In this document: piece by piece, positions 7,004 through 37,828 of the stretch
Layout: every line of letters begins with the position of its first letter
How positions within the stretch are numbered: position 1 is the stretch's first letter
NCBI GenBank assembly: GCA_016935015.1
Contig: JAFGRT010000141.1
Span: 1-46,332, forward strand
Length of the DNA stretch: 46,332 nt
Direction of reading: 5' to 3'
From: Acidobacteriota bacterium
Lineage (GTDB): Bacteria > Acidobacteriota > JAAYUB01
Position numbers and translations under genes: made by a program
Notes under the pieces: generated by a model
Told to the model about the DNA's origin: nothing
The model's database searches: none
Seen by the model: only the letters and a program-made list of their open reading frames with translations

Positions 7004-7004
7004 G

Positions 7005-8747
7005 ATGCGCGTCCTGCTCATCCAGCCGCCCGTCGAGGATTTTTACACCACGGCCGTGCGGACCTATCCCTTGGGGCTGGCTTGCCTGGCCACCGTCCTG
7101 GAGACGGCGGGACACACTGTCGCCATCCTCGATGCCCACCGCCCCCGACAATGTGCGCCTCGGCCGCTGCCGGCCGAGTTCGGCCATCTGCACCGTTATT
7201 ATCCCCCCGCCGCCGCCGCCCCGTACAAGCTGTTCCGGCAGTACCGACGCTTCGGGCTGTCCACCGAGGAAATCCGGGTATCCATTCGTCAATACGATCC
7301 GGCGGTGGTGGGCGTCGCCGCCATGTTTTCGGCCTACGCCGACCAGGCGCTGGAATGCGCCCGGGTGGTCAAGGAGCTGGACATGAACATCCCGGTGGTC
7401 ATGGGCGGCGCCCATGCCACCGTGGCGCCGGAGCACCTGCTGGCCGACCCGGCCGTGGACTGGGTGATCATGGGCGAAGGCGAACGCCCCCTCGCCGCCC
7501 TCATGGCCTATTTCACCACCGGTGCCCCCCGGCCCGAACAGATCACGGGCTTGGGCTGGAAGGCACCGGGCGGCCTGCGCCTTCAGCCGGAGCTGGATCT
7601 CATCCAGGACGGTGCCCGGCTGCCAACACCGGCCCGTCATCTGCTGGACCCGACCGACTATACCATCGCCGGGCGGCGTTATACGGCCCTGCAAACCAGT
7701 CGCGGCTGCCCGCACCGTTGTGGCTTCTGTACCGTGCATTGCCTGAGCGGGACAGGTGTCCGCCGCCGGCCGACGGCCGACGTGGTGGCGGAAATGCAGG
7801 CCTGTGTCCGCCGCTGGGATATCCGTCATTTCGACCTCGAAGATGACCATTTTCCCCTGAACCGCCAGGCGGCACTGGAACTGGCGGCGGCTGTAAGGGG
7901 CTGTCCGGAACTGGAAGGTGTGGAATTCACCGCCATGAACGGCATGCCCACCCGCCCGCTGGACCAGGAGGTGCTCGCGGCTCTGCGGGACATGGGTTTC
8001 CGGCACCTCGATCTGGCCATGGTATCCGCCAGCGCCGCCACGCTGGACCGATTGGGCCGCCCCGACAACCCCCGGCATTTTTATCACGTCCTCGACCGCG
8101 CCGCCGCCCTCGGCCTGGCAACAGTGTCCTATTTCATCATCGGTCTACCCGGCGAACTCCCGCCGGTCACCTTGACCACCCTGGTCCGTCTCATGGCCCG
8201 GCCGGGCATTCTGGGCGGGAGCGTCCTGTATCTGACGCCCGGTACAGAGCTGTACCGGCAGTGGCCCCACCGTCTCGCTTACCGGCAAATGCGCTCCACC
8301 GCCGCCGCCTGCGCCCGGCCCGACTTCACGCCGGACCAGCAGCTCACCATCCTGATGCTGGTGCGTCTGGTCAATTACCTGAAGTCCCTGCTCCCGCCCG
8401 GCACACGTCGCCCGTTCAAGGAACTTCGGGATGAATTGCAGACCCGTTATGCCCTGACCGACACCTGGCAAGGCCCCTTCGGCGTCACCGCCGCCATGGG
8501 CGACGCCGGCCGGGTGGCCGCCGCCACCTCGCTGGCCACGGGACGCCTCCTCGGCCTGCGCCGCGTAAGCCGCCGTCCCCATCGTTTCCTGCTGGCGGAG
8601 GAACCGCTGGACCATGGCCTGTTTCGGGATTTCCTGGATACGGCCGTCGCTTTTTCCATCGCCGCGGCCCAGCCGGCGGGCGCCAACCGGCCGGTCCCCA
8701 GCCATCCAACCGGCGCCCCCGGCCGGATTGCATCATCTGAAACCTGA
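7005..8747 (+). CDS. B12-binding-type radical SAM protein
   Basis: The 580-residue protein has an N-terminal cobalamin-binding-like Rossmann domain (MRVLLIQPP, LGLACLATVLE, IPVVMGGAHATVAPE and DWVIMGEGE) followed by a radical SAM domain. The iron-sulphur motif is Cys235-PHR-Cys239-GF-Cys242. This is the class of BchE, HpnP/HpnR and many methyltransferases or cyclases. The classical DxHxxG cobalamin His motif is not evident, as in many members. The C-terminal 200 residues (MFRDFL-like, Arg-rich, LLPPGTRRPFKEL) give no function. Translation probably follows from the TPR gene one base upstream. A Pro/Ala-rich tail of about 30 residues looks disordered. The substrate cannot be named. Confidence 0.85.
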   Translation: MRVLLIQPPVEDFYTTAVRTYPLGLACLATVLETAGHTVAILDAHRPRQCAPRPLPAEFGHLHRYYPPAAAAPYKLFRQYRRFGLSTEEIRVSIRQYDPAVVGVAAMFSAYADQALECARVVKELDMNIPVVMGGAHATVAPEHLLADPAVDWVIMGEGERPLAALMAYFTTGAPRPEQITGLGWKAPGGLRLQPELDLIQDGARLPTPARHLLDPTDYTIAGRRYTALQTSRGCPHRCGFCTVHCLSGTGVRRRPTADVVAEMQACVRRWDIRHFDLEDDHFPLNRQAALELAAAVRGCPELEGVEFTAMNGMPTRPLDQEVLAALRDMGFRHLDLAMVSASAATLDRLGRPDNPRHFYHVLDRAAALGLATVSYFIIGLPGELPPVTLTTLVRLMARPGILGGSVLYLTPGTELYRQWPHRLAYRQMRSTAAACARPDFTPDQQLTILMLVRLVNYLKSLLPPGTRRPFKELRDELQTRYALTDTWQGPFGVTAAMGDAGRVAAATSLATGRLLGLRRVSRRPHRFLLAEEPLDHGLFRDFLDTAVAFSIAAAQPAGANRPVPSHPTGAPGRIASSET

Positions 8748-8792
8748 TATCGTTTCGGTTCATCCCAAACAGGAGGAACGGCATCTGTCGCC

Positions 8793-8819
8793 CCGGAATC
8801 GGCCGGGCCCGGATTCCGG
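8793..8819 (+). terminator. Possible stem-loop after the rnr operon
   Basis: CCGGAATC at 8793-8800 pairs with GGATTCCGG at 8811-8819. It lies 45 bases past the radical SAM stop codon. No T-run follows, so it is only a candidate end of transcription or an mRNA-stabilising structure. Confidence 0.3.
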
Positions 8820-8868
8820 ATGAAATTCGGCGGCAATGGATGATCCCACGAAAGGAAAGCATCCCCAC

Positions 8869-9057
8869 ATGGCAGAAAACAGGAAATCCGGCTGCGGCTG
8901 TTTCGGCGGCGGCGTCTTTGGCAGCATCGGCGCCGTGCTGGCGGCCATCCTCAGCTGGCAGGTCAACCACAGCATCCTCTGGGCCCTGGTGCACGCCTTC
9001 TTCAGCTGGTTCTACGTCATCTACCACTGGTTGAAATACGGCCGGCTGCTTCCCTAG
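8869..9057 (+). CDS. Small membrane protein of unknown function
   Basis: The 62-residue product starts with a charged segment, then SGCGCFGGGVFGS (two Cys in a Gly-rich patch), a hydrophobic stretch (SIGAVLAAILSW) and a second one (ILWALVHAFFSWFYVIYHW), ending in a short basic tail. It is probably an inner-membrane protein with two short membrane-spanning or membrane-associated helices. An upstream ATG at 8836 would add 11 residues. The internal ATG was preferred because AAAGGAAAG lies just before it and the added residues are polar and poorly structured. Its TAG stop overlaps the stop of the convergent methyltransferase gene in a shared CTAG. The family was not recognised. Confidence 0.55.
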   Translation: MAENRKSGCGCFGGGVFGSIGAVLAAILSWQVNHSILWALVHAFFSWFYVIYHWLKYGRLLP

Positions 9058-9878
9058 CCGGATGAAGTTCTTCCCCCGCCAATCACCGGCCTCGATTCGG
9101 CCGGCTTGACGGCTGACCACAGATCAAAAATGATTTCCGTCTCCAGTACCAGCGATCGACCGGCCGCCTCCGCCGCGCGTACGGCCGTGTCGATCCTTCG
9201 CCGGCCGGCGGCGTATTCCGCCTCTGTCAGCATGGTCAGCTGGGAGCAGGCCTCCTTCTCCAGAAAGGGATCTTGCCCAACCTCGGCCCCGGCAAACCGG
9301 GCATACGATCGCTCAGCCTCCTGCCGCGGAGCCGGTACGAGACCGGCCGCGTCCGCCCAGCGGTTCATCTCCTCCCAGGCGGGAAAGCGGTCCAGATCCC
9401 GGGCAAAGGTCCCCTCGAAAAAACGGTACGGATACCATTGGGCGGCGCCGCGCCGCGGATCCATGCCCACTACGGCCAGGGTTCCGCCCGGTCGCAAGAT
9501 CCGGGCGGCTTCGATGACAAAGCCGTGCGGACTGGAAAAATGGTGAATGGCGTTGACACAGTATACCAGGTCGATGCTGTGGTCCCGCAGCGGCAAGGGG
9601 GTATCCCGTCCGCAGACCAGATGAAAGGTCTCCCCTTTATCGGCGGCCCGGCGCAGCATTTCCGTAAAGGGATCCACACCGATTACCCGGGGAGCACGGC
9701 CGGCGCATTCCGTCAGCCAGCGCCCGGTGCCGCAGCCCACCTCCAGCACCGCCGCCGGACGCAGCCGGTCCAGGAGCCGGTGGAGGGCCGCGGCGATGCC
9801 CGGCAGGCGGTTCAGGAGATAGCGCCGGTCATACGAATCGGCGATCAGGGAATAATCGGTTCGTCGTCGTTTCGCCAT
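9054..9878 (-). CDS. Class I SAM-dependent methyltransferase
   Basis: The 274-residue protein has a Rossmann-fold methyltransferase core of the Methyltransf_11 type. Motif I is VLEVGCGTGRWL near residue 45. The acidic loop after strand 2 is VIGVDPFTEML. The motif IV region is DLVYCVNAIHHF, and the post-motif ILRPGGTLAVVGMDPR is clear. Such enzymes transfer the methyl of SAM to small molecules. The acceptor is unknown. The open frame extends 30 codons upstream, but those residues look non-coding, so MAKRRR at 9878 is taken as start. The gene converges with the small membrane protein gene and shares the palindromic stop CTAG. It lies 86 bases downstream of the peptidase stop on the same strand. 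Confidence 0.85.
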   Translation of the reverse strand: MAKRRRTDYSLIADSYDRRYLLNRLPGIAAALHRLLDRLRPAAVLEVGCGTGRWLTECAGRAPRVIGVDPFTEMLRRAADKGETFHLVCGRDTPLPLRDHSIDLVYCVNAIHHFSSPHGFVIEAARILRPGGTLAVVGMDPRRGAAQWYPYRFFEGTFARDLDRFPAWEEMNRWADAAGLVPAPRQEAERSYARFAGAEVGQDPFLEKEACSQLTMLTEAEYAAGRRRIDTAVRAAEAAGRSLVLETEIIFDLWSAVKPAESRPVIGGGRTSSG

Positions 9879-9964
9879 GAGCCAGCCCCGGCGGGGACAA
9901 GACGGCGGTCCGGTGGCCATCCGGGGAGGACGCTCACCGGCCGCCTGTGTTGACAGCCAGTGCC

Positions 9965-11257
9965 TCATTCCACCGCCGCTGCTTCCAGCCGGGGGAGAAT
10001 GTCCGCCAGGGCATCCTTGTGCACGGCGAAAAAGAGCATTTTCAGGCGGACGTAATCATCCCGGAACAGGTAATAGCCCTCGTACTGGCCCCAGGTGGCG
10101 GAGCTGCCGGAGTCCTTGATGAGGTACCAGTCGAAGTCGCCCACCCGGGTGTGGCCCACGGCATGAATGGCGTGATCGTCGGTGGTGCTTTTGTTGACCA
10201 TGCGGTATTCGCGGGCGCTCTGATCGATATGCGCCGCCGGGATGTCGAAGGTGGGCACGAAGGCCACATCGGCCATCCCCAGCTTGCCCGGTTCGGATAC
10301 GTCACCGCCCAGAACGGCCGTGTAACCGCCGGCCAGGGCCGCCTGCAGGGTGGCGTACCACTCGTCGAGCGGCAGATTGATGAAGTCGTCGCAGTGCCAC
10401 CAGTTGTCCGGGGCCCGCAGCTCCTGGCAGGTGTAGAAGGGAAAGTAGAGGGTGGACATGACGGCATGGTAGTCGTCCATGTGGAGCCCCGTTGCCTCGG
10501 CCAGGAACTGCCGTGGCGTCCATTGCCGGCCGTTATACGTGAATTCCCGCGGCGGCGGTCCGAGATACTTGTCGAGGATCAGGGCCACATGCCGCAGATT
10601 GTCATCCTCGTCCCACATATCCTTTGCCTTGACCATGTCCAGGTAAGCTTCCAGTTCGTCCATCAGCGCCGAATGGTCATGGCGCGTTTTCCCCTCCGGC
10701 AGACCCGGATAGGCTGCGGCGGGCACCATGCCGTAGGAGTCCCATATCTTCAGCACCGACGTGAATTCGGAACCATGGGAGACGTAGGAAGCTCCCCGCT
10801 CGCGGATGAAACGCCGGGATTTCTCCAGGAACTCGTAATAGACCGTCCAAATTTCCGACAATTTGATTTTCTTGCCCGTCAGGCGGAAGATCTCCGCCTC
10901 GAAGAAGGAGGTGGCGGAAAAGCTCCAGCACGAGCCCGTCAGGTGCTGGCGGACAGGGGCGAAGTGGAAGGGCGCCTCAAACTCGGCCACGGACCCGGGG
11001 GGCGTCACCCCACTCAGATCCGACACCAGGGCCCGCCGTTCCTGTCGCTCGGCCTCCTTCTCCTCTTTCTGCCTCTCGCGGATTGCCGTGGTCTCCTTCT
11101 GCCGCTCCGCCGCTGCCTTCTTGTTGTCTTCCGACATCTGCTTCAGCACAGGATCTTCCTTATGTTTGTCATATCTCGCCCTGTTACGCTCATCGTCGGC
11201 CCGGACCAGCACCGCCGCCATCATCACCAGGATGAGGCCATAACCTATTCGTCTCAT
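9965..11257 (-). CDS. Secreted papain-like (C1) cysteine peptidase
   Basis: The 430-residue product has a signal peptide (residues 1-20, ending near VRA) and then a long charged, Lys/Glu/Arg-rich helical stretch (about 21-78). The catalytic domain of the C1/bleomycin-hydrolase type follows. Gln104 and Cys110 lie in RQHLTGSCWSF, and the His motif is DDHAIHAVGH (His362). Where classical papains have the Asn of NSWG, this protein has IKDSGSSATWG, so the third catalytic residue is Asp382 or another residue. The ending GYYLFRDDYVRLKMLFFAV resembles bacterial C1 peptidases. The start at 11257 is set by AGAGGTGG just upstream. The gene lies 76 bases behind the lipoprotein gene on the same strand and is probably co-transcribed with it. 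Confidence 0.8.
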   Translation of the reverse strand: MRRIGYGLILVMMAAVLVRADDERNRARYDKHKEDPVLKQMSEDNKKAAAERQKETTAIRERQKEEKEAERQERRALVSDLSGVTPPGSVAEFEAPFHFAPVRQHLTGSCWSFSATSFFEAEIFRLTGKKIKLSEIWTVYYEFLEKSRRFIRERGASYVSHGSEFTSVLKIWDSYGMVPAAAYPGLPEGKTRHDHSALMDELEAYLDMVKAKDMWDEDDNLRHVALILDKYLGPPPREFTYNGRQWTPRQFLAEATGLHMDDYHAVMSTLYFPFYTCQELRAPDNWWHCDDFINLPLDEWYATLQAALAGGYTAVLGGDVSEPGKLGMADVAFVPTFDIPAAHIDQSAREYRMVNKSTTDDHAIHAVGHTRVGDFDWYLIKDSGSSATWGQYEGYYLFRDDYVRLKMLFFAVHKDALADILPRLEAAAVE

Positions 11258-11333
11258 GTTTCCACCTCTTGTAAAATTTGCGTTTCGCCATCCTTCGGTT
11301 TGCGGATTCCCGCGGCCGATCCAGCCGACCGGT

Positions 11334-11828
11334 CTATTGAACCGACAGGGTGGCCGACGCATGGATCTGCCCCCCGCCCCGCAGGTCCCACACACGAAAG
11401 GAGAACCTGTATTCTCCGCCGCTGCGCATGGGTTCGCCGACGGTGCAGGATATGGTCAGTGTACGGCCAGCCTCTGGTGTAACCCCCGTCGTCTCGTACT
11501 GGGCGAACAGATTGGGCTCATCCAGAATAATACTTCCGGTGGTGTCCTTCACCTGGAGGGATGCGCCGGGGAAGACCCGCCCCTCGATCTCAGTGAAGCC
11601 TTGCACGCCTTCCAGGGAGAGAACCAGGTCCTCGCCTCGGGACAGCGTGCGCTTTTGCAGTTTGGCACCGCCCACGACCAGGTAGGCGTCCTCCAGACTC
11701 AGCCCATTATTCTGCACCGACAGCCCACTCATAAAATCAGAGCGGGTGCCTACGTTGAAATTGCAGCCGCCCATCCCCGCCAGCATCACCACCAGCAAGA
11801 AAAGACCCAGCCATATCCCGTAACGCAT
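11334..11828 (-). CDS. Lipoprotein of unknown function
   Basis: The 164-residue product has a clear lipoprotein signal: hydrophobic core LGLFLLVVMLAGMGGC, with the lipid-acceptor Cys at residue 22. The mature part is rich in beta-prone, polar segments and ends in EYRFSFRVWDLRGGGQIHA. This suggests a compact beta-sandwich, perhaps resembling the small accessory domains that accompany secreted enzymes. No named family was recognised. It is preceded by GGAGGG and by a promoter with 17-base spacing at 11911-11939. It is the first gene of a two-gene unit with the papain-like peptidase, so an inhibitor or chaperone role is conceivable, but this is inference. Confidence 0.7.
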   Translation of the reverse strand: MRYGIWLGLFLLVVMLAGMGGCNFNVGTRSDFMSGLSVQNNGLSLEDAYLVVGGAKLQKRTLSRGEDLVLSLEGVQGFTEIEGRVFPGASLQVKDTTGSIILDEPNLFAQYETTGVTPEAGRTLTISCTVGEPMRSGGEYRFSFRVWDLRGGGQIHASATLSVQ

Positions 11829-11910
11829 CTTTCCCTCCTTCGGGGGCGCTCATGGTCCCACATACCAGCTCCGACACCGATCCAACTTCCGGCCGCGCCC
11901 GCTGGTTGAA

Positions 11911-11939
11911 AGTATACAGTGCCGCCGGCGCCCGTTCAA
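11911..11939 (-). promoter_or_regulatory. Sigma-70 promoter of the lipoprotein-peptidase unit
   Basis: On the minus strand TTGAAC (11939-11934) and TATACT (11916-11911) are separated by 17 bases. Transcription would begin near 11904, giving a leader of about 75 bases before the lipoprotein ATG. Confidence 0.65.
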
Positions 11940-12017
11940 CCGGGAATCAAGTCACCGGCCGGGAAAACATGTCACCCGGACGGCGGTTGTCGATTCATCG
12001 GCTTCTCCGGTCAGGCG

Positions 12018-12047
12018 TTGACAAAAGCCGGCCCAGATGGTTACATT
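12018..12047 (+). promoter_or_regulatory. Sigma-70 promoter of the hybrid kinase gene
   Basis: A consensus TTGACA at 12018-12023 and TACATT at 12042-12047 are separated by 18 bases. The kinase start at 12104 follows with AGGAAAGGGG as ribosome binding site. It is divergent from the lipoprotein promoter about 80 bases away. Confidence 0.65.
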
Positions 12048-12103
12048 AGAGCGCACCTGACCTCCCTTCGGGGAATACGCACCAGGAAAGGGGATCTGCC
12101 TGT

Positions 12104-15004
12104 TTGCTGAGCCGCGTGGAAAACAAACTGCTGGCGTTGATGGTGGGCATCTGCCTGGTCGTATCGCTGGGGGCCATGCACATCATGTTCATCGTGGAGA
12201 AGGATCGGCAATACGCCGGCGCACGGCAACGCCTGCAGAATATCGCCCGGCGCAATGCCCTTCTGCAACGCGAACTATTCAGTCACAAACTGGCCAAGGC
12301 AACGACGGCCAGCCGGCTGGTGCGCCAGATCCTGCCGCAGCCACCGTCTCTCACAACAAAAGCGCCCCCGGCGGCCGAGGGGAGGAGCGCCCGGCGCGGT
12401 ACCGATTCGGCCGGGGTCTCCGGATTCTTCATTTCCGAACTTGCCCCTCCCGCACCACACATCCAGGAGCTGATCCGCTCGACGGAAACATTGTGGCAAA
12501 TTCTCGGCCCCCTCATGCGGGAAGATTTTCTCGATTTCTACCTCATCACGGCCGACCAGTTCATCCGGATCACCCCGCCCGACTGGGCCATGGAGATCGA
12601 ACGCGATCATGATTTCACCCGGGATATTTTCTATTATCCAGCCACGCCCGAACAGAACCCGGCCGGCAAACCCGTCTGGACCCCCGTCTATTACGATTCC
12701 ATCCACAAACACTGGATGATCAGCCTGCTGGTGCCTGTCTCCATTGAGGGGCAATTCCTGGGCATCACCGGCTCCGACTTCATCCTGGACAGCCTGTTCG
12801 CCCGGATCAACCGGTGGTCGATTCTGGAGAACTTCGGCACCATCTGCCTGTTCGACCACGAGGGGAATATCATCGTCCACCCGCGCTACATGGGCCTGAT
12901 TCAGCAACGGCACGCTGAAATGAACGATACGCTTTCCTTCCGGGACATCCCCCAGCAGGGACTGGCGGCGACCATCTCCAACTATCTGGAGGACATACCA
13001 CCGGACGGTGACTTCTATGATTTCAGGGACGCCGGGGAGCAGCAGCTGGCCTACCTCCAACCGCTGGGCGTCAGCGGCTGGCACCTGGTCGTCTATGTTC
13101 CCCACTCCACCATCAGCGCCCCCCTGGTGGCCAATCGATGGAACATCGTCATCACCACCCTGCTCATCGCCCTGGTGCTGATCCTGGTTCTGCGCTTCGG
13201 CATCCGGCGCATCATCCTGGCCCGGGTTCTCGGCCTGGAAAGAGCCAGCCGGGCCCTGACCCACGACGAGCCCGTCACGTTTCCCCAGCCGGGCAACGAT
13301 GAGATCGGCAGCCTCATCCGGGCCTTCCAGGAGATGGCCCGTACACTGCGCCGGCGGGAACAGGAACTGCAGGAGCACAACCGGATTCTGGCCGAGTTCA
13401 ACGAAAAACTCAAAGTGAACGAACGCCATTTAAAAACCAAGAAAGATGAACTGCAGGCCATTCTCGACAACGCGACAGCGGTCATTTACGTCAAGGACCT
13501 GCAGGGCCGATATGTCCTGGTGAACCGGAATTATGAAAAGATGTTCGGCGTCGACCGGCAGAACATCACCGGAGCGACGGTGCATGACATTTTCCCGCCC
13601 GAGGATGCCCACCGCTATGAGACCGTGGACCAGCGGGTCATCGAGACCGAAGTCCCGGTAGAGATCGAGGAGATGGCGGGGCGGGGCGGAGAGGAGCGCT
13701 TTTTCCTGTCGCTGAAATTTCCCCTGTATGACGCCGATGATCACCTGAATGGTGTCTGCAGCATCTCCACCGATATTTCCGAACGTAAAAAAGCCGAGGA
13801 GGAGCGGCGACGGCTGGAGCAGCAGATCCAGCATACCCAGAAACTGGAAAGCCTGGGCGTGCTCGCCGGTGGTATCGCTCACGATTTCAACAACCTGCTG
13901 GTGGGCATTCTCGGCAATGCCGATCTGGCCCTTACCGATGACTCCTTGTCGGTGCAGGCCCGCCACAACGTCCGTGAAATCGAGCGTTCGGCCCTGCAGG
14001 CGGCGGACTTGTGCCGGCAGATGCTGGCCTATGCCGGCAAAGGCAAACTGGTGGTGGAGCCCCTCTCTCTCAACGAACTCATCAAAGAGATGAAGCATCT
14101 GCTGGAACTCACCGTTTTCCGGAAGGCCCGGCTCTCGGTCCACCTGGCGCCCCGGCTGCGAACCATCACCGGGGACATCAGCCAGATCCGCCAGGTGATC
14201 ATGAATCTGCTGATAAACGCCGCCGAAGCCTTGCCGGCGGCCGGCGGTGAAATCCAGATCCGGACGGGGATGCGGCCGTGTGACCAGTCGTTCGGACAGG
14301 ACGCTTTCGGGGCGGAAAATTTCCAGCCGGGGGAATACATCTTTCTGGAGGTCACCGATTCGGGTGACGGCCTGTCGCCGAATGACATCCCCAAAATTTT
14401 TGAACCGTTTTACACCACCAAATTTACCGGCCGGGGACTCGGCCTGGCGGCGGTACTCGGCATCGTCCGCGGGCATCACGGCATGCTGACCGTGGCCAGT
14501 GCACCGGGCCAGGGCAGCACGTTCACTGTCTTCTTCCCGGCGGCGGATCAGTCCCGGTTGACCGAAGCGACCGTGGGCGCCACTGTGGACGTCTGCAAGG
14601 ATTCGGGGACGGTCCTCTTGGTGGATGACGATGCCACGGTCCGCCAGGTGGGGCAACTGATGCTGGATCGCCTTGGATTTACCGTCCTGACGGCGACGGA
14701 CGGACTGTCCGCCGTCGAGATTTTTCGCCGGCATGCGGATCGCATCGATTGCATTCTGCTGGATCTGACCATGCCCAACCTGAGCGGGGAAAAGACCTAT
14801 CTCGAGCTGCAGCGGATCCGGCCGGGCGTCCCCACCGTGATCATGAGCGGCTTCGCGGCCGAGGAAATCAACGACCGTTTTCCGAATGAAGCGGCGGTGG
14901 GTTTTTTGCAGAAGCCGTTCCAGCTGGCTTCCCTGAGCCTCTGCCTGCAACGGGCCATGACCAGTCGTCGCCGGGGATCCGGCGCGCCGGAGGCACCGTT
15001 ATGA
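12104..15004 (+). CDS. Hybrid sensor histidine kinase with Cache, PAS and receiver domains
   Basis: This 966-residue membrane kinase has a first membrane helix (about 8-28), a large periplasmic dCache-like sensor (about 30-340, with FLDFYLITADQFIRI and FLGITGSDFILDSLFARI), a second helix (about 345-368) and a HAMP/coiled-coil linker. A PAS domain follows (about 448-565, VIYVKDLQGRYVLVNRNYEK). The histidine kinase has His593 in the NtrB-like motif GGIAHDFNN, an N box (INAAEAL), and G boxes (DSGDG, GRGLGLA). A C-terminal receiver domain has DDD, the phospho-acceptor in LLDLTMPNLSGE and Lys in FLQKPF. Phosphate may pass from His593 to its own receiver. No output regulator lies next to it. The start is a TTG, preferred because of the upstream AGGAAAGGGG. 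Confidence 0.9.
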   Translation: MLSRVENKLLALMVGICLVVSLGAMHIMFIVEKDRQYAGARQRLQNIARRNALLQRELFSHKLAKATTASRLVRQILPQPPSLTTKAPPAAEGRSARRGTDSAGVSGFFISELAPPAPHIQELIRSTETLWQILGPLMREDFLDFYLITADQFIRITPPDWAMEIERDHDFTRDIFYYPATPEQNPAGKPVWTPVYYDSIHKHWMISLLVPVSIEGQFLGITGSDFILDSLFARINRWSILENFGTICLFDHEGNIIVHPRYMGLIQQRHAEMNDTLSFRDIPQQGLAATISNYLEDIPPDGDFYDFRDAGEQQLAYLQPLGVSGWHLVVYVPHSTISAPLVANRWNIVITTLLIALVLILVLRFGIRRIILARVLGLERASRALTHDEPVTFPQPGNDEIGSLIRAFQEMARTLRRREQELQEHNRILAEFNEKLKVNERHLKTKKDELQAILDNATAVIYVKDLQGRYVLVNRNYEKMFGVDRQNITGATVHDIFPPEDAHRYETVDQRVIETEVPVEIEEMAGRGGEERFFLSLKFPLYDADDHLNGVCSISTDISERKKAEEERRRLEQQIQHTQKLESLGVLAGGIAHDFNNLLVGILGNADLALTDDSLSVQARHNVREIERSALQAADLCRQMLAYAGKGKLVVEPLSLNELIKEMKHLLELTVFRKARLSVHLAPRLRTITGDISQIRQVIMNLLINAAEALPAAGGEIQIRTGMRPCDQSFGQDAFGAENFQPGEYIFLEVTDSGDGLSPNDIPKIFEPFYTTKFTGRGLGLAAVLGIVRGHHGMLTVASAPGQGSTFTVFFPAADQSRLTEATVGATVDVCKDSGTVLLVDDDATVRQVGQLMLDRLGFTVLTATDGLSAVEIFRRHADRIDCILLDLTMPNLSGEKTYLELQRIRPGVPTVIMSGFAAEEINDRFPNEAAVGFLQKPFQLASLSLCLQRAMTSRRRGSGAPEAPL

Positions 15005-15114
15005 TTCGGTTCAGCCGGGAGAAACACCGCCGCCGATTTCAGAGGCCGCGGACGACGATCCCGGTGGCCGTCATCATCGGGAATGAAATCCATCCGGATG
15101 CGTATCTGAACTGA
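15001..15114 (+). CDS. Possible 37-residue coupled open reading frame
   Basis: An ATG overlapping the kinase stop codon (ATGA) opens a 37-codon frame with a basic N-terminal half (MIRFSREKHRRRFQRPRTTI) and a short hydrophobic stretch. The overlap is typical of translational coupling, but there is no separate ribosome binding site and no recognised family. It may be chance. Nothing else is seen between the kinase and rnhA. Confidence 0.2.
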   Translation: MIRFSREKHRRRFQRPRTTIPVAVIIGNEIHPDAYLN

Positions 15115-15216
15115 AGGAACATGGACAGGCCGTGATCCGGCCGAAGGGTGAATACCCCGCCAGAAAAAAATGAACCTCTGGCCGAGGCTCCGCATGATCT
15201 TGCCCAAGGAAAATGG

Positions 15217-15921
15217 ATGAAAAAAAACAACATCGAGTCCGATTCCCCCCCCACCCCGGTGATTCACCTGTACACCGACGGCGCCTGCTCGGGCAATCCC
15301 GGCCCCGGGGGCTGGGGCGTGGTGATGGAGACACCGGGCGGCGTCCGTGAATACGGCGGCCATGAACCCCACACCACCAACAACCGCATGGAGCTGCGCG
15401 CCGCCATCGAGGGTCTTCGCCGCGCGCCGGTCGAGACCCTTGTCGTTGTAACGGACAGCCTTTACGTGTATAAAGGTATCCGCGAATGGATTCATCAATG
15501 GAAACGGCGCGGCTGGCAAACCGCCGGCGGCGCGGCGGTGCTGAACCAGGATTTGTGGCAGGAACTCGACCGCCTGAACGCGGCGAATGTCCGCTGGGAA
15601 TGGACCCGCGGCCATGCCGGTCATCCGGGCAACGAGCGGGCCAACCGCATCGCCCAGTGGTTCGCCCGGGGACCGCGGGCGGACATGCCGCCGCCGGATG
15701 TCCCGCCGACCCGGCCCACCGCCAGGAAGAAACACCTGCCGCTCCTAGACCACCGCCCGCCGGGCGTCACCTACCTCAGCCTGGTGGGCGGCGAACTGCG
15801 CCGACACCAGACGTGGGAGGAGTGCCGCCACCGCACCCAGGGTTGTTCCGGCGCCCGCTACAAGAAATGTCGCTCCCGCGAGGAGGAAGAGGCAACGCTG
15901 GCCGGTTGGGGTTTCCATTGA
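15217..15921 (+). CDS. rnhA: Ribonuclease HI with C-terminal viroplasmin-like domain
   Basis: The product cuts the RNA strand of RNA-DNA hybrids. Residues 14-150 form the RNase HI domain with Asp21 in YTDGACSGNPG, Glu59 in NNRMEL, Asp80 in VVTDSLYVYKG and His133 in RGHAGHPGNE. The fourth acidic position is Asn143 (NERANR) rather than the usual Asp. After a Pro-rich linker, residues 184-234 (YLSLVGGELRRHQTWEEC, then SGARYKK) resemble the caulimovirus viroplasmin/RNase H N-terminal hybrid-binding domain. Here it sits at the C-terminus. The start ATG follows AAGGAAA. An upstream GTG at 15148 would add 23 residues but has no ribosome binding site. Confidence 0.88.
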   Translation: MKKNNIESDSPPTPVIHLYTDGACSGNPGPGGWGVVMETPGGVREYGGHEPHTTNNRMELRAAIEGLRRAPVETLVVVTDSLYVYKGIREWIHQWKRRGWQTAGGAAVLNQDLWQELDRLNAANVRWEWTRGHAGHPGNERANRIAQWFARGPRADMPPPDVPPTRPTARKKHLPLLDHRPPGVTYLSLVGGELRRHQTWEECRHRTQGCSGARYKKCRSREEEEATLAGWGFH

Positions 15922-15991
15922 CCGGGCGGCGCCGGCCGCGAATGAATTCGCGCGCAAGACCGGACCAGTCAATCCCTGAAGAGGAGGAAAC

Positions 15992-18040
15992 ATGGAGCCA
16001 TTGACGCCGAGCCCCTGGTTAACCAGGCTGCGCCGGAAACGTTGGATTCACGCCCTGCTGGCCGGCCTGGCAGCCCTGCTGGCGGGCCTGGTCATCGAAT
16101 GGCTGGCCGGCGGACCGACCCTGCCCGGTTCTATCCTGCAAGTCCTGGGTATCGTGCTGATGCTGCTGATCCTGCTCAGCCGGCTGTTCCTGGCGTTGCG
16201 CTGGCTCATCCGGAAAATGTTCTTCAAGGTGCGCAACCGCATTATCGCCAACTATTTCCTCACCGGTCTTCTGCCACTCTTCCTGCTGGCCCTGCTGGTG
16301 TTCATCACCGGCAACCTGTTCCTGGTCCAGCTGGCCAGTTATCATCTGAAACAACTCATGGCCGATGAATTTTCCACCGCCGAACAGGCGGCTTTCGAAC
16401 TGTCCGTCGTGGCGGCCACCGGTGATCCCGACGCCGGACTGGCTGCCGAGGTCATCACCCATTACCGTACTCTCCTGCCGGGGCTGCAGGCGACAGTTCC
16501 CGAAGAGCCGGTTACCGCCAAACCCGGCTGGACATCCGACGATCCCCTGCCCTGGCTGGCGCTGCCGGCCAAGACCCTTCAAACCTATATCGTCACCGGC
16601 GACATCATTCATCTCGTGGTCCAGCTGACACCCGAAAACTCGCGGGCCCGGCGGCCCGTGCAGGTGAGCGTACCGCTGGCGGCACCGCTGCTGACCCGAC
16701 TGGAAAAGGACATGGATGGGTTCATCCTCTTCATCCACGGCGAAGGCGACATGACGTCCACCGATACTTCGGCTGATCAAGAATCACCCCCGTCAGCGCG
16801 CTACGGATCCGGCCTCAGGATATCCATCGATTCGTCGGCGGAGGATGAAAACAGATTGACAGCATGGCTGGCCGGTCTGCCCGACGGCCTGGCCTACCTC
16901 GATTCCTACACCATCGCCCTGGGATTCTCCCTCAAACCGGACAGTGAGATCGAGGAGATGATGGTGCTGGGGATCGTCCGGACGAAATATTCGGCCATCC
17001 TGGGCAAGTACATCCAGGGCTCCCTGCCGGCCGACGTACCCGCCCACAAGCTGTTTCTCTGGCTGGGATTTATCGTGGGCGGCTTCTTCGCTTTCATTGA
17101 GCTCATCGCCTTCGCCATCAGCCTGGTTTTCTCGCGCTCCATCACCAAGGTCATCGGCCAGCTCCATCGCAAGACCCGCCTCCTGGCCCAGGGCGATTTC
17201 GATTACCGCATCGATTCGAAGCGGCGGGACCAGCTGGGTGAACTAGCCCGTTCCTTCGACGGGATGTCCGACGACCTGCAACACCTCCTGATCGAAGTCA
17301 AGGAAAAGGAACGCATGGAGCGGGAGCTCGCCATCGCCCAGGAGCTGCAGAACACCTTCTTCCCCAAGAGCCTGCCCGATATCCAGGGAGTGAACCTGTG
17401 GGGCAAGTGCCTGCCCGCCCGCAAGGTGAGTGGCGACTATTACGATTTCATCCAACACGCAGACGGTTCCGTCGATTTCTACATCGGCGACATCAGCGGC
17501 AAGGGGATTTCGGCCGCTCTCCTCATGGCCAGCACCCAGACCTTCCTGCGCCTGGAATCGGCCAAGCACCCCCGCCTGCCGGTCCACAAAATCGTGGCCA
17601 ACTACAACAATTACTTGCTGAACTACAGCGCCCACGGTAAATTCAGCACCCTTTTCTTCGGCCGACTGGACAAGGCGAGAAACACCCTTTCCTATTGCAA
17701 CGCCGGCCACAATCCGCCCTTCCTTTTCCGGCAGGGGCAGGTCCTGCTCCTGGAAACGGGCGGCATGATTACGGGGATCTTCGAGGATACGCCGTACGAA
17801 TCCGAAACGGTGCTGCTGCAGCCCAAAGATTTGCTCCTCGCCTATACCGACGGCTTCACCGAAGTGTTCAACCAGGAGCAGGAGGAATTCGGCGCCGACC
17901 GTCTGTGTGACCTGGTGTGTGCCGCCGGCGAATTCCAGTTGCACCAGCTGTACGACAATCTGGTGTCGGCCGTCCGGCAGTGGTCGGCCGTCAGTGAACA
18001 GGCCGATGACATGACTATGCTGATGGTCATGATTCAATAA
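15992..18040 (+). CDS. Membrane HAMP-SpoIIE (RsbU-type) serine phosphatase
   Basis: This 682-residue protein has three hydrophobic helices at the N-terminus (about 20-40, 45-68, 88-112), an extracytoplasmic region (about 115-350), a further helix (353-377), a HAMP domain (378-430) and a PP2C-like SpoIIE domain (about 465-680). Catalytic marks are CLPARKVSGDYYDF, YIGDISGKGISAALLMA and AGHNPPF, plus the late YTDGFTEVFN and DDMTMLMV. The linker ELAIAQELQNTFFPKSLP is typical of RsbU-like phosphatases. Such enzymes dephosphorylate STAS-domain anti-anti-sigma factors. No STAS protein or anti-sigma kinase is encoded in this window. The start follows GAGGAGG. The MATE gene starts two bases after its stop, so the two are co-transcribed. 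Confidence 0.9.
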   Translation: MEPLTPSPWLTRLRRKRWIHALLAGLAALLAGLVIEWLAGGPTLPGSILQVLGIVLMLLILLSRLFLALRWLIRKMFFKVRNRIIANYFLTGLLPLFLLALLVFITGNLFLVQLASYHLKQLMADEFSTAEQAAFELSVVAATGDPDAGLAAEVITHYRTLLPGLQATVPEEPVTAKPGWTSDDPLPWLALPAKTLQTYIVTGDIIHLVVQLTPENSRARRPVQVSVPLAAPLLTRLEKDMDGFILFIHGEGDMTSTDTSADQESPPSARYGSGLRISIDSSAEDENRLTAWLAGLPDGLAYLDSYTIALGFSLKPDSEIEEMMVLGIVRTKYSAILGKYIQGSLPADVPAHKLFLWLGFIVGGFFAFIELIAFAISLVFSRSITKVIGQLHRKTRLLAQGDFDYRIDSKRRDQLGELARSFDGMSDDLQHLLIEVKEKERMERELAIAQELQNTFFPKSLPDIQGVNLWGKCLPARKVSGDYYDFIQHADGSVDFYIGDISGKGISAALLMASTQTFLRLESAKHPRLPVHKIVANYNNYLLNYSAHGKFSTLFFGRLDKARNTLSYCNAGHNPPFLFRQGQVLLLETGGMITGIFEDTPYESETVLLQPKDLLLAYTDGFTEVFNQEQEEFGADRLCDLVCAAGEFQLHQLYDNLVSAVRQWSAVSEQADDMTMLMVMIQ

Positions 18041-33215: not shown

Positions 33216-35210
33216 TCAGTCCCGCAGGGTCCGGGTGCGCAGGAAACGCTGCAGATCCAGCCGCAGCTCGGTAGCCGAGGGGTAGCGCCGCTCGGAATCC
33301 TTTTCCAGGACGTGACCGATGATGCGCTGCAGTTCGGGCGGTACGACTGTGGGCAAAGCCCGGGGGCTTTTGTACAGGATGGCGTGCATGATGCCGATAT
33401 AATTCTCCCCCTCAAAGGGATAGGCGCCGCTGGCCAATTCGTACAGCACGATCCCCAGCGAGAAGAGATCCGTGCGGTGATCCACCGTACCACCGGCCAG
33501 CTGCTCGGGTGACATGTAGTTGACCGTGCCCAGGATAGCCCCCTGCTCGGTAAGGCCGGTGGCCACGGTCCGCTTCATCTCCTCCCCTTCCAGGATCTTG
33601 ACCAGACCGAAATCGAGGATTTTCACCCGGCCTTCGGTGCTGATCATGATGTTGGCCGGCTTGATGTCGCGGTGGATCATTCGCCGCGAATGGGCATGCT
33701 CCAGCGCCTCGGCGATCTGGATACCGATGCGGCACAGGGCATCGGGCTCGAACGCCCCTTCCCGGATGAGTTCCTTGAGGGTCTGCCCCTCGACGTACTC
33801 CATGACGATAAAGTCGAGACCGCTTTCCTGGCCGACCTGGAAGATGGTGCAGATATTGGGATGATTGAGGGCTGAGGCCGAGCGGGCCTCCTTGAGAAAA
33901 CGCTGGCGGACCACCGTATCGTTGATGTTGCGCGGCGAGATCAGCTTGATGGCCACGTGGCGTTTGAGCTGGGTATCCAGGGCCTTATAAACCGTGCCCA
34001 TGCCGCCCTCGCCGAGCTTGCGGAGCACCTTGAACGAGCCCAGCCGCTCGGGTCCGCCGCTGGCGGCATCCCGAAAGAAATCCTCCAGTTCCATGGCCGA
34101 GGGGCCGCCGGTGATGGTCCGGGAAACATCCTGCACGGTGGCGGCCTCCGGCGAAGTCTTGCCGGGGGCCGGCACCGGCCGTGCCGCCCGTTCCTGTTCC
34201 TGGTGAATTTTTTCATCGAGAAATTCGGCGAAAATGGTGGAGAAGAGCACCGCTTCATCCCCCGACTGGCGGATGTAGCCCGCCTTTTTCAGATTGCGGG
34301 CCAGGTAGGCCAGCCGCGGCGGGATTTCCTCGCCGCGCCGCACCAGATGCAGCACTTCCTTTTCATCGGCCGACAGGTTCTCCCACACGTAATTGAAATG
34401 GGGCGTCACCTCCTCGCGGAAACTCTCCGCGACCTGCTCCTCGTCCACGTCTACGCCGTCCAGCACCAGATTCTCGAAAAAGGCGCTGCAAGCGATCTGC
34501 AGGTAGAAGGGGAAGTAACCGGCGAATTCGATGATCCGGTCGGTGTACGATTCCAGGGGCAGACCGGCCTTCATGGAAGGGATGTTGATGAGCTGCTGCG
34601 CCTCTTCCGGTGAAAAGACACCGAGATTCAGGGTGCTGAAGATATTGAAAAAGGGTGAATCGGCTACCTTGGAGGTGTGGCACAGTTCCTGGAGGTCCCG
34701 GCCGGAGCTGGTGATAAAAGCCAGGTCGTAGTTGTTGGCCAGGGAGCGGAAAAAAGAAAAAAACTCTTCGCCGAAGCGGGGATTGGACGTGACCACATCG
34801 AATTCATCGAACAGGATCACGATCTTGCGGCCGTGTTTCTGGTGGGAGACCACCGCCTTGCGGACACCCTCGAAATCGGAAGTCAGGGTGCTGGAAAAAT
34901 CCGCCGAAGAAAGCATCAGCAGGATGAGTTCGCGGAAAAACTCCTCCAGGGAAATGTTGCGGCGCTCCTGCAAATCCATCTTGATGAACACGTAGTTTTC
35001 CGGGTCGGGCAACATCTTCCGGCGGATCTCGGGGAAGGAGATGTGGTTAAGGAGCGACGACTTGCCGATCCGCCGCTCGCCGACCACCGACACCGATTGC
35101 GGCCGCGCCGCGCCGATGCGGGAAAAGATGCGGGCCGCCTCACGCTGGCGGCCGTAAAAACGCGACACATCGCGGATGGATACCCGATCGAGATAGGGAT
35201 TCAGATTCAT
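33216..35210 (-). CDS. P-loop ATPase-Ser/Thr protein kinase fusion
   Basis: The 664-residue protein joins an N-terminal AAA/STAND-like ATPase to a C-terminal Hanks-type Ser/Thr kinase. Residues 5-50 hold the NPYL and FYGRQREA lead-in, then the P-loop VVGERRIGKSS (42-52). The Walker B is VILFDEFD (131-138). A winged-helix-like region follows (about 265-325). After a linker, the kinase (about 390-660) has GEGGMGTVY, the VAIK lysine (422), HRDIKPAN, DFG and SPEQ, so it should be active. The order (ATPase first, kinase last) is the reverse of many such fusions. Its ATG overlaps the stop of the upstream receptor gene, which points to coupled synthesis of the two partners. Confidence 0.9.
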   Translation of the reverse strand: MNLNPYLDRVSIRDVSRFYGRQREAARIFSRIGAARPQSVSVVGERRIGKSSLLNHISFPEIRRKMLPDPENYVFIKMDLQERRNISLEEFFRELILLMLSSADFSSTLTSDFEGVRKAVVSHQKHGRKIVILFDEFDVVTSNPRFGEEFFSFFRSLANNYDLAFITSSGRDLQELCHTSKVADSPFFNIFSTLNLGVFSPEEAQQLINIPSMKAGLPLESYTDRIIEFAGYFPFYLQIACSAFFENLVLDGVDVDEEQVAESFREEVTPHFNYVWENLSADEKEVLHLVRRGEEIPPRLAYLARNLKKAGYIRQSGDEAVLFSTIFAEFLDEKIHQEQERAARPVPAPGKTSPEAATVQDVSRTITGGPSAMELEDFFRDAASGGPERLGSFKVLRKLGEGGMGTVYKALDTQLKRHVAIKLISPRNINDTVVRQRFLKEARSASALNHPNICTIFQVGQESGLDFIVMEYVEGQTLKELIREGAFEPDALCRIGIQIAEALEHAHSRRMIHRDIKPANIMISTEGRVKILDFGLVKILEGEEMKRTVATGLTEQGAILGTVNYMSPEQLAGGTVDHRTDLFSLGIVLYELASGAYPFEGENYIGIMHAILYKSPRALPTVVPPELQRIIGHVLEKDSERRYPSATELRLDLQRFLRTRTLRD

Positions 35211-37660
35211 TGTGCCCGTCCGTTTCTGGATTCACCGACGATCTGCCAGGGGGAATGCTCCCGCTGAACCCAGATGCGCAGGAGATCCATGCGGTAATGA
35301 TAGTCGCCGCCACGCTTGAGCAACACATCCCGGCTGCACAAATTCTCCAGGGAGGTCATCACCGTCTCGTGGTCCAGAGCGACGGGTAACTGCAACGTTT
35401 CGACGTGGGCCATGATCTCCTCCGGACCCTCGCCCGGCACATTGTGGGCCGTCAAGGCATCGGCCAGGACGGCCAAAACCAGCTTTTCCGGCTGGGTAAA
35501 GTTCTCCCACAGGTAGAGGATCTGGGGCAGCGGATTCTCCACCATCTGCTCCAGCACCGCGTCCAGGTCGTCCTCGTTGACCACATTCCGGCGCACTTCG
35601 TTCAGGTGATCGACGCAATTCATGCAGATGGCCTGGGTAAAGAACGGCTGACCGGCCGTCAGTCGGTAGATGCGCTCGGGCACACCGCTCTCGTAATAGA
35701 CCAGCCCCGCCAGCGGTTCTTCGATGAGGCGGAAGGTATCCCGTTGCGTCAGATAGCTGATCTTGCGGTACATACTCTTGGCGATGAGATGCTGCCAAAC
35801 GGCGCCGTCCCGGTCCTCCAGCCGGGTGGAACCGGTGAGCACGTAGCTCAGCGACGGATGGCGCTCCAGCAACCCGGCCAGAAGCCCGATGACGGAGGGA
35901 TGGAGGATGCCCTGCCGGATCAGGTTTTCCATAATTTCATACTCGTCGAGGAGGAGGAGTATTTTTCGGTCTGGATGCGTCCGGATCAGAAAATTGAGCA
36001 TGTTTTCAAAGCCGCGAAATCCGGCGGCCAGGGCCTCTTCCGGCGTAGCCAGATCCCGCCGGCGCAGGCTTTCGATGATGTCCCGCACCATGATCTGGAA
36101 AAATTCGTCCGTCTCGCGTACATTGCCGTAGAGCTGAAAATCGATGAGAGACGGGAAATAACCTTCACCCAGCCGACCGTTGAGGATCTGGTACAGGATG
36201 GACGTCTTGCCACTGCGGCGCTCGCCGCAAATGACCAGGCAGATGCCGGCCGTCTCGTGTTCCAGGTGTTTGCGGATAAAATCGAAATCGTCCTGCCGCC
36301 CGAAGAACATGTTCTCTTCACGCACCGGATTGCCGACAATGTAAGGATTGACGGTAATGGGCGTATACCGCTCCAGGGCCCGTTTCTTGCGGCGCAGCCG
36401 CACCAGGCGCCGCATCAGCACCCAACCCCAGCTGCCCAGCAGCACCACCGCCAGGATGGACACCCCGGTGATGATGGTCCACAAGCGTTCGCGCCGTTCC
36501 TCCAGCAGTTGCCGTGCCGGCAGGAAACGACCGTCCTGGACCACGATCACACCCACCTCCTTGATGACGTCACCGTTGGACTTGAAATTGAAATTGCCGG
36601 TGAGTCCGGGGAAGTTTTCCGTAGCGTACAGGGCGTCGCGCAGGTACTGGCCGTAGGGGAGACGCACCCGTCGCATGGCGTGGAGCAGAATGCGGACGGC
36701 GTCATAGGACCGGGCGGCAATGGGACCCGGCTCCTCGCCGAAGCGGTCCCGGTAGCGGGCGACAAATTCCTGGACGCTCTTTTTCTGGCGATGGACATAA
36801 AACGAGTCGGTGGAGATCATGCCGGCCACGCCCTCGGTCTCCGGGGCGATATACCGCTCGTTGACACCCGGCGCGAAGAGCTGGAAATCATGGCCCAGGC
36901 GGGCATACTGCGAAGCGATGCGCAGGTTGTCGCTGGTGATACCGAACAGGCCGAGGGCCTGGATGCCCTGTTGCTCGGCCTCGCGCAGGGCGGCGGAGAA
37001 ATCCTTGTGCCCGCGCTGGAAGGGGAAGGAGTAGGCGATGCCCAGCTCATAGCGTCGCAGGGTGTCCTCGAGATCGGTGCGCAGACCGCGGCCGTACTCG
37101 TCATCCTCGAACAGGACACCGATGCGCTCGACCTGCAGCTCCTCCACCAGATACTGGCTGAGAGCGGCCAGGCGAAAGTAGTCCGATTCCACGCAGCGGA
37201 ACACCCAGCGGTTGCCCATGGAAGTGATGCGCGTCGCCGTGGCATCGGCGGTGAGCAGGGGCACGTTGTAGTAAGCGGCCACCTGCATGTCCACCAGGGT
37301 GCAGGAGCTGTTGTTGGGACCAATGATGGCCACGGCGCCCTTGCGGATGAGGGAGGCAACGCCCATTTCCGACCGCTCGGGCCAGCCGCGGTCGTCTTCG
37401 TGGATCACTTCCACGCGCCGTCCGTGGATGCCCCCCTCGTCATTGACCTCCTGTGCGGCCAGCAACACACCGTTCAGCTCCTGAGGTCCGACGAAACCAC
37501 TGGGTCCGGTAAAGGGACCAATGACCCCGATCACGATGGGATCCTGGCTGAGCGGCTCGGGCTCCGTGTCCCGCAGCTGGGTTCCGGGCGAACCGCCCAA
37601 TGCCGCCAGCAACAGCGCCGTGACCATGATCCGACTGAACCGTCGCGTCTGTTGGGACAT
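35207..37660 (-). CDS. Periplasmic-binding-domain receptor with cytoplasmic ATPase
   Basis: The 817-residue protein starts with a hydrophobic signal/anchor (about 11-22). A type I periplasmic binding domain of the Leu/Ile/Val family (Peripla_BP_6) follows at 42-385, with IVIGVIGPFTGPSGFVGPQ, IIGPNNSSCTL and EDDEYGRG. One membrane helix (394-416) and a basic linker lead to a cytoplasmic P-loop ATPase with NPYIVGNP and FFGRQDDF, Walker A CGERRSGKTS (478-487) and Walker B ILLLLDEYE (567-575), ending in a winged-helix-like region. Such binding domains normally serve ABC transporters. Here no permease is near, so ligand binding is probably transduced inward. The next gene overlaps by four bases. 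The start is set by family N-terminus and the promoter. Confidence 0.88.
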   Translation of the reverse strand: MSQQTRRFSRIMVTALLLAALGGSPGTQLRDTEPEPLSQDPIVIGVIGPFTGPSGFVGPQELNGVLLAAQEVNDEGGIHGRRVEVIHEDDRGWPERSEMGVASLIRKGAVAIIGPNNSSCTLVDMQVAAYYNVPLLTADATATRITSMGNRWVFRCVESDYFRLAALSQYLVEELQVERIGVLFEDDEYGRGLRTDLEDTLRRYELGIAYSFPFQRGHKDFSAALREAEQQGIQALGLFGITSDNLRIASQYARLGHDFQLFAPGVNERYIAPETEGVAGMISTDSFYVHRQKKSVQEFVARYRDRFGEEPGPIAARSYDAVRILLHAMRRVRLPYGQYLRDALYATENFPGLTGNFNFKSNGDVIKEVGVIVVQDGRFLPARQLLEERRERLWTIITGVSILAVVLLGSWGWVLMRRLVRLRRKKRALERYTPITVNPYIVGNPVREENMFFGRQDDFDFIRKHLEHETAGICLVICGERRSGKTSILYQILNGRLGEGYFPSLIDFQLYGNVRETDEFFQIMVRDIIESLRRRDLATPEEALAAGFRGFENMLNFLIRTHPDRKILLLLDEYEIMENLIRQGILHPSVIGLLAGLLERHPSLSYVLTGSTRLEDRDGAVWQHLIAKSMYRKISYLTQRDTFRLIEEPLAGLVYYESGVPERIYRLTAGQPFFTQAICMNCVDHLNEVRRNVVNEDDLDAVLEQMVENPLPQILYLWENFTQPEKLVLAVLADALTAHNVPGEGPEEIMAHVETLQLPVALDHETVMTSLENLCSRDVLLKRGGDYHYRMDLLRIWVQREHSPWQIVGESRNGRAQ

Positions 37661-37798: not shown

Positions 37799-37828
37799 AT
37801 TATAAAGATTTTTCACGGATTCGTCCAA
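37799..37828 (-). promoter_or_regulatory. Sigma-70 promoter of the receptor-kinase unit
   Basis: On the minus strand TTGGAC (37828-37823) and a perfect TATAAT (37804-37799) are separated by 18 bases. Transcription should start near 37792, leaving a leader of about 130 bases before the receptor ATG. This separates the unit from radA and gltX. Confidence 0.7.

Follow-up and report, generated by a model that had tools for sequence, protein, structure and literature searches.

Partner STAND ATPases probably couple a one-helix receptor to a Ser/Thr kinase in an Acidobacteriota bacterium

The window analysed here is the whole 46,332-nucleotide stretch of contig JAFGRT010000141.1 of an Acidobacteriota bacterium, which is contig C158 in a draft genome of 4.75 Mb and 97% completeness. 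On its reverse strand lie two genes, A and B (table 1), which share four bases (35207-35210, ATGA), as the preliminary description of this DNA had reported. Its account of their anatomy was also borne out: gene A, which starts with an ATG codon, encodes a signal-like helix followed by a periplasmic binding protein (PBP) domain of the Peripla_BP_6 family, one transmembrane (TM) helix and a P-loop ATPase, and gene B an nSTAND2 ATPase fused to an intact Ser/Thr kinase. A possible promoter is marked by a consensus match (10/12) located 139 bases 5' of the ATG of gene A. The preliminary description had called it a strong promoter of the pair's own; the match is there, but the region holds two promoter-like sites where chance would give 0.9, and the consensus scan is the sole basis for the assignment.

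Table 1. Features of the A/B locus, in coordinates of the window.
Feature	Position	Strand	Basis
Possible sigma-70-type promoter, TGGACG-17-TATAAT	37799..37827	-	consensus scan, 10/12
Gene A, receptor, PBP-TM-divergent nSTAND ATPase, 817 aa	35207..37660	-	ORF + Pfam
Peripla_BP_6/leucine-binding-protein-like extracellular domain of A, aa 42-382	36515..37537	-	Pfam, E 1.7e-56
Transmembrane helix of A, aa 396-414	36419..36475	-	hydropathy scan
A-type nSTAND ATPase, aa 432-812	35225..36367	-	profile alignment
Walker A of A, GERRSGKT, aa 479-486	36203..36226	-	sequence
Walker B of A, LLLLDEYE, aa 568-575	35936..35959	-	sequence
Gene B, nSTAND2 ATPase + Ser/Thr kinase, 664 aa	33216..35210	-	ORF + Pfam
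B-type nSTAND2 domain, aa 1-345	34176..35210	-	PF20702, E 1.5e-62, + alignment
Walker A of B, GERRIGKS, aa 44-51	35058..35081	-	sequence
Arg155 of B, candidate arginine finger	34746..34748	-	invariant in B domain alignment
Ser/Thr kinase domain of B, aa 393-645, PknB-like, catalytic residues intact	33276..34034	-	Pfam, alignment, structure comparison

The PBP of gene A finds its best matches in LivK, LivJ and the leucine-binding protein (LBP) with both Foldseek and hmmsearch, and it combines the Peripla_BP_6 domain with the leucine-binding-protein fold that mark the LIV type. In the leucine-binding protein, we take Ser79 and Thr102 to bind the ligand carboxylate and the acid at position 226 (E226) to bind the amino group. 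Equivalents of the two carboxylate-site residues are kept in all five PBPs compared (that of the window and four relatives). At the amine site, the alignment shows Asp in each of the four relatives and Gly265 in the window protein, and Tyr202 is replaced by Ile or Val in the aligned gene A PBPs. From these residues the ligand of gene A is plausibly amino-acid-like; the presence of Gly265 in place of the amine-binding acid may indicate that it is not an amino acid, or that the site has decayed.

The ATPase of gene A remained below every Pfam cut-off (AAA_16, 22.7 bits with 32.6 needed) and was not among the PF20702 (nSTAND2) matches above the curated cut-off. On profile comparison it is a divergent STAND domain, the A-type and B-type ATPase families being related with an hhalign probability of 99.8%. 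The nearest solved sequence relative of both types is the archaeal-type ATPase 2fna, the matches being weak (E values of 1e-4 and 1e-8). AF2 models of the window proteins, built from 5-6 sequences, reached pLDDT values of 67 and 72; they are usable for the PBP and the kinase and weak for the gene A ATPase, so that the geometry of an arginine finger was not derived from them.

Gene B matches nSTAND2 with 211.9 bits (cut-off, 24) over profile positions 2-277 of 279. Its Pkinase match (E 5e-54) contains complete VAIK, Glu, HRD, Asn and DFG elements, and the Lys, Glu, HRD Asp, Asn and DFG Asp by which an active Hanks-type Ser/Thr kinase is recognized from its sequence are all in place. In structure this kinase is nearest to M. 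tuberculosis PknB (Z 33, 38% identity), and kinases alone are found among the matches listed for the gene B model, which therefore do not bear on the fold of nSTAND2. Histidine kinase and receiver domains were not found by Pfam in A or B. The genome of the window carries at least 20 Ser/Thr kinase genes, a single one of which is fused to nSTAND2. PADLOC matches on the gene B kinase (PD-T4-6, mad6) were set aside as generic kinase matches that are not evidence of defence, and in a plasmid search 1015 records matched, none covering 80% of the query, with the five listed matching chiefly over the kinase region.

Full-length gene A (PBP-TM-nSTAND) was found in the three other members of the family that were searched, at 54% identity, and in the two members of the same order, at 40-41% identity, each time with B following it; in the fetched flanks, the A-B pair is the sole content of the window common to these relatives. 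Outside the order of the window, the ATPase half of A is kept at 40-45% identity and the sensor is a different one. Thus, the conserved core is the ATPase pair rather than the PBP, which gives way to other sensors.

In a survey of 297 genomes of the phylum, with matches counted at E<=1e-80, A was found in 20, B in 20 and both in 19, in single copy each. The two genes therefore co-occur in 19 of 21 carrier genomes, the two exceptions being fragmented assemblies (1130 and 650 contigs), with Fisher p-values, which ignore phylogeny, of 9e-28 for the whole set and 1.5e-20 without the window's order. A and B are unlinked, being far apart or on different contigs, in eight of the 19 genomes. All seven unlinked B genes that were fetched encode nSTAND2-kinase proteins, and so does the one B found without A. 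Operon hitch-hiking cannot explain co-occurrence of genes that are both present though unlinked, and such co-retention is the strongest sign of joint function. The preliminary description had named separation in relatives as an argument against its reading, and here the outcome is mixed: the PBP-ATPase gene is kept in the window's order with B co-present, but the PBP is swapped outside it and linkage is lost in the eight genomes. One genome that has the main pair also carries a second, divergent A/B-like pair (L049, G053 C92:51763-54507), whose A-type protein has several TM helices.

Run against one genome from each of 84,980 species, the A ATPase profile returned 63 A loci from about a dozen phyla, with Acidobacteriota, Calditrichota, Latescibacterota, Krumholzibacteriota, Spirochaetales, Desulfobacterales, Glassbacteria, KSB1, Gemmatimonadales, Eisenbacteria and Myxococcales represented, and with more distant loci in Cyanobacteria and Anaerolineales. 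In 32 of the 49 strong loci (L052-L100), a B-type domain lies near A on the same strand; as to the other 17, two contigs end within a kinase directly or shortly downstream of A, five loci end at a contig edge and ten are unlinked. The conserved gene pair that the preliminary description had set beforehand as a condition for its reading is thus found both within the phylum, as co-occurrence, and elsewhere, as same-strand neighbours.

What varies is attached to this pair. On the A side, the sensors include Peripla_BP_6, CarboxypepD_reg with a Reg_prop/Y_Y_Y propeller, PEGA, TPR, RHS repeats, BNR/sortilin-like and multi-TM modules, and in an Anabaena locus a PBP is placed C-terminal to the A ATPase in a mirror topology. 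On the B side, the output is a kinase, C-terminal in Acidobacteriota and N-terminal in Latescibacterota, Krumholzibacteriota, Glassbacteria and others, a class III nucleotide (guanylate/adenylate) cyclase in eight Spirochaetales loci and one of Desulfobacterales, a kinase together with a cyclase in Calditrichota, or a TIR domain in Aggregatilineales; a distant exception (L111) carries TIR on both the A and the B proteins. By hydropathy alone, nearly every complete A protein has a TM segment adjoining its nSTAND domain, a few falling under the threshold, and nearly all B proteins are devoid of one. The predicted division of labour is thus nearly always that of a membrane protein A with the sensor and a soluble B with the output. 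A residue-level alignment found the catalytic Lys, Glu, Asp, Asn and Asp intact in 26 of 27 B kinase domains; 11 of 26 kinases had seemed atypical by the HRDxKxxN pattern, an impression that the alignment removed save for one duplicated domain. In a Calditrichia protein (L100, 14225-17836), two kinase domains precede nSTAND2, the second being a pseudokinase that lacks the catalytic Glu, Asp and DFG Asp.

Several loci contain additional genes. In nine loci (L068, 14253-19298; L072, 14124-19112; L077, 12422-17440; and six more), the gene directly 3' of B encodes a secreted protein of approximately 1670 residues with GDVDxDGDLDL-type (FG-GAP-like) repeats, and in eight the gene 5' of A encodes one of approximately 250 residues; both recur in several phyla. 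Eight Spirochaetales loci, among them L074 (11956-12873), have a gene for a secreted protein of approximately 305 residues, repeat-like and then strand-rich, that separates A from a pair of B-type genes, one of which has no output domain. Such secreted companions recur beside A in Latescibacterota, Krumholzibacteriota and Glassbacteria and in Spirochaetales, in agreement with extracellular sensing, and the second, output-less B-type ATPase of some spirochaete and other loci suggests that the stoichiometry may be more complex than one to one. An Anaerolineales contig (L107, 1-15389) has an array of eight consecutive nSTAND genes, three of the A type and five of the B type, with a kinase on one of the latter: a local amplification of the A/B pair. 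Between A and the B-kinase of two loci (L054, 6625-8582; L056, 11230-12174) stands what from its sequence appears to be a Dam-like DNA methyltransferase, accompanied in L054 by a gene that may encode a restriction enzyme, an apparent insertion of a restriction-modification system inside the signalling pair. In the restriction-modification-like cluster of L051, an N6 DNA methylase/specificity protein carries an A-type nSTAND at its C-terminal end (5615-11349), and the next gene (11339-16383) encodes a 535-residue B-type nSTAND protein, so that here the ATPase pair is found in a DNA-modification context.

The A and B ATPases are paralogues: a tree built from 71 domains of the A type and 55 of the B type resolves two clades with none of the 126 domains misplaced (support 0.989, midpoint view); the A and B labels had been set by profile before the tree was built, the independent fact being that the loci carry one of each. 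Degraded ATPase sites in homologues would have spoken against the preliminary description, and the sites are not degraded: Walker A is intact in 70 of 71 A and 51 of 55 B domains, and the Walker B Asp is kept in 71 of 71 (as DE in all of them) and 54 of 55, respectively. Arg155 of B, which follows Walker B, is invariant in the 55 B domains, and the corresponding column in A is Ala or Ser in 50 of 71 domains and Arg in 12; the A domains carry another, mostly conserved Arg (52/71). Such an asymmetry would be expected of a mixed complex in which B completes a nucleotide site. The distances within the A and B sets also correlate (r=0.65, 34 pairs) in a mirror-tree comparison that is uncorrected for species phylogeny.

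With the architecture, the intact active sites, the pairing, the membrane/soluble split and the interchangeable sensors and outputs all legible in the sequences, A and B probably (we would say at about 70%) make up a transmembrane signalling system of two proteins, the signal passing from receptor to kinase by way of partner STAND ATPases. The main argument for signalling is that the ATPase pair is constant, while sensors are attached to A and enzymes of the signalling type to B. According to this proposal, A would be a one-helix receptor that uses its LIV-binding-protein-like domain to sense a small, probably amino-acid-like molecule outside the cell and whose cytoplasmic nSTAND ATPase would report the state of that domain. 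B would be a soluble transducer, its nSTAND2 ATPase being the dedicated partner of that of A, and we infer that the two are in physical contact. Ligand binding would most likely alter the nucleotide state of the A:B assembly, with Arg155 of B as the candidate finger of a shared site, and the altered assembly would re-position or cluster the kinase and so switch it, either on or off. Receptor-to-kinase signalling through paired ATPases, as put forward in the preliminary description, is thus the best-supported reading by taking into account the conserved pair and its intact sites, but the part that is conserved is the ATPase pair and not the PBP.

Other explanations account for part of these data. 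Peripla_BP_6 proteins normally hand their ligand to LIV/HAAT transporters, and the presence of this domain in A could betray the remnant of an ABC-type uptake system in which the PBP still feeds a transporter powered by the P-loop ATPase. The preliminary description had seen no permease nearby, which holds for the whole genome: the LIV/HAAT permease family BPD_transp_2 (PF02653) is absent from the entire 97%-complete assembly and was detected in 12 of 14 control genomes, so that the version with a LIV permease is already refuted. With, moreover, no match of gene A to an ABC ATPase in Pfam, a PBP fused in cis to a TM helix and a STAND domain, and other sensors at the position of the PBP in relatives, a transport role is most improbable. 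That A and B are neighbours without joint work, A being a ligand-gated ATPase that acts elsewhere and B an independent ATP-regulated kinase, would agree with their lack of linkage in eight of the 19 genomes. However, even the unlinked genes strictly co-occur in one copy each, the two ATPases are paralogues with co-varying distances, and in 32 loci, spread over many phyla and differing in sensor and output, A and B are neighbours on the same strand; independence is therefore an unlikely reading.

Slightly less unlikely, but still well behind the signalling pair, is a variant of the published nSTAND2 operon in which the STAND pair would sense an invader, such as a phage, and the kinase would be a toxic or abortive effector. 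The nSTAND2 family was defined on the basis of a mobile operon of two genes, the products of which both have a STAND NTPase core (eLife 2021, PMC8195603, Fig. 6C). This is a predicted system for which a toroidal hetero-multimer and a counter-invader role were proposed, with a conserved arginine finger in both proteins as a criterion, and one of the STAND domains is eroded and bears a GT4 or HEPN effector. Membership of B in the same Pfam family, the use of Ser/Thr kinases, TIR domains and cyclases as known conflict effectors (with TIR on both proteins of L111), the methylase-A fusion in the restriction-modification-like cluster of L051 and the patchy distribution in the phylum (20/297) would all fit a conflict system. 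Against it, close relatives carry extracellular sensors of the kind used for metabolites or surfaces (PBP, propeller, PEGA), there is a single copy per genome with the same architecture kept at the order level, both ATPases are intact, in contrast to the eroded, effector-fused one of the operon, and the kinases are catalytically intact, whereas those of related ternary conflict systems are mostly degenerate.

If signalling through the A/B pair is correct, STAND ATPases, which are familiar mainly from immunity and cell death, would also serve as transmembrane signal couplers. To our knowledge, few bacterial Ser/Thr kinases have known extracellular inputs and what activates these kinases is an open question; here, one branch of kinases would be matched with a receptor of its own, present in single copy and with exchangeable sensors, and inputs and outputs would become testable by domain swaps. 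The recurrence of the ATPase pair with different sensors and outputs looks like an unnoticed general route for signals across the membrane, and there is a real chance that the pair represents a new class of transmembrane signalling. We would give even odds to the broader proposal that it is an ancient heteromeric universal coupler, with any sensor on A driving any output on B, and hence a further general class beside histidine kinases and one-protein receptors.

Among known systems, the two-component hybrid sensors with Reg_prop/Y_Y_Y propellers share the propeller modules and the one-helix logic with A-type relatives, which differ from them in having neither histidine kinase nor receiver and an nSTAND ATPase as the cytoplasmic part. 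The PknB-type PASTA receptor kinases have a similar kinase domain; gene B differs in lacking PASTA and TM segments, its regulation being assigned to a separate receptor. For the STAND-like archaeal ATPase_2 protein (PDB 2fna), the weakly matching nearest solved relative, neither a receptor nor a kinase is known to us as a partner.

The literature searched, the scope of which left subscription papers and preprints outside, yielded no PBP receptor built on a STAND domain and paired with a kinase. The preliminary description, whose author knew of no described one-helix receptor of this form with a partner kinase, had missed two precedents, the nSTAND2 operon (PMC8195603) and, in function, the GlnH-GlnX-PknG system (PMC6069109). 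The former is similar in having adjacent genes with a STAND core in both products, B of the window belonging to the same Pfam family. A and B differ from it in that both NTPases have intact Walker A and B motifs with the effector on the intact B, in that the output is a kinase, cyclase or TIR domain instead of GT4 or HEPN, and in that A is a transmembrane receptor with extracellular sensors, unlike the soluble design of the operon; the section of the article's text that deals with the operon does not mention transmembrane receptors, PBPs or kinases for it. By analogy of function, the closest known system to A/B would be GlnH-GlnX-PknG of Actinobacteria, encoded in a conserved operon, in which a periplasmic amino-acid-binding protein steers a cytoplasmic Ser/Thr kinase via a membrane protein (PMC6069109, PMC9769921). 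The likeness is one of function, as GlnH-GlnX-PknG consists of three separate proteins without STAND ATPases, with another membrane protein and with a TPR domain in PknG, whereas in A/B the binding domain, the helix and an ATPase are joined in one receptor and the kinase is fused to the partner ATPase.
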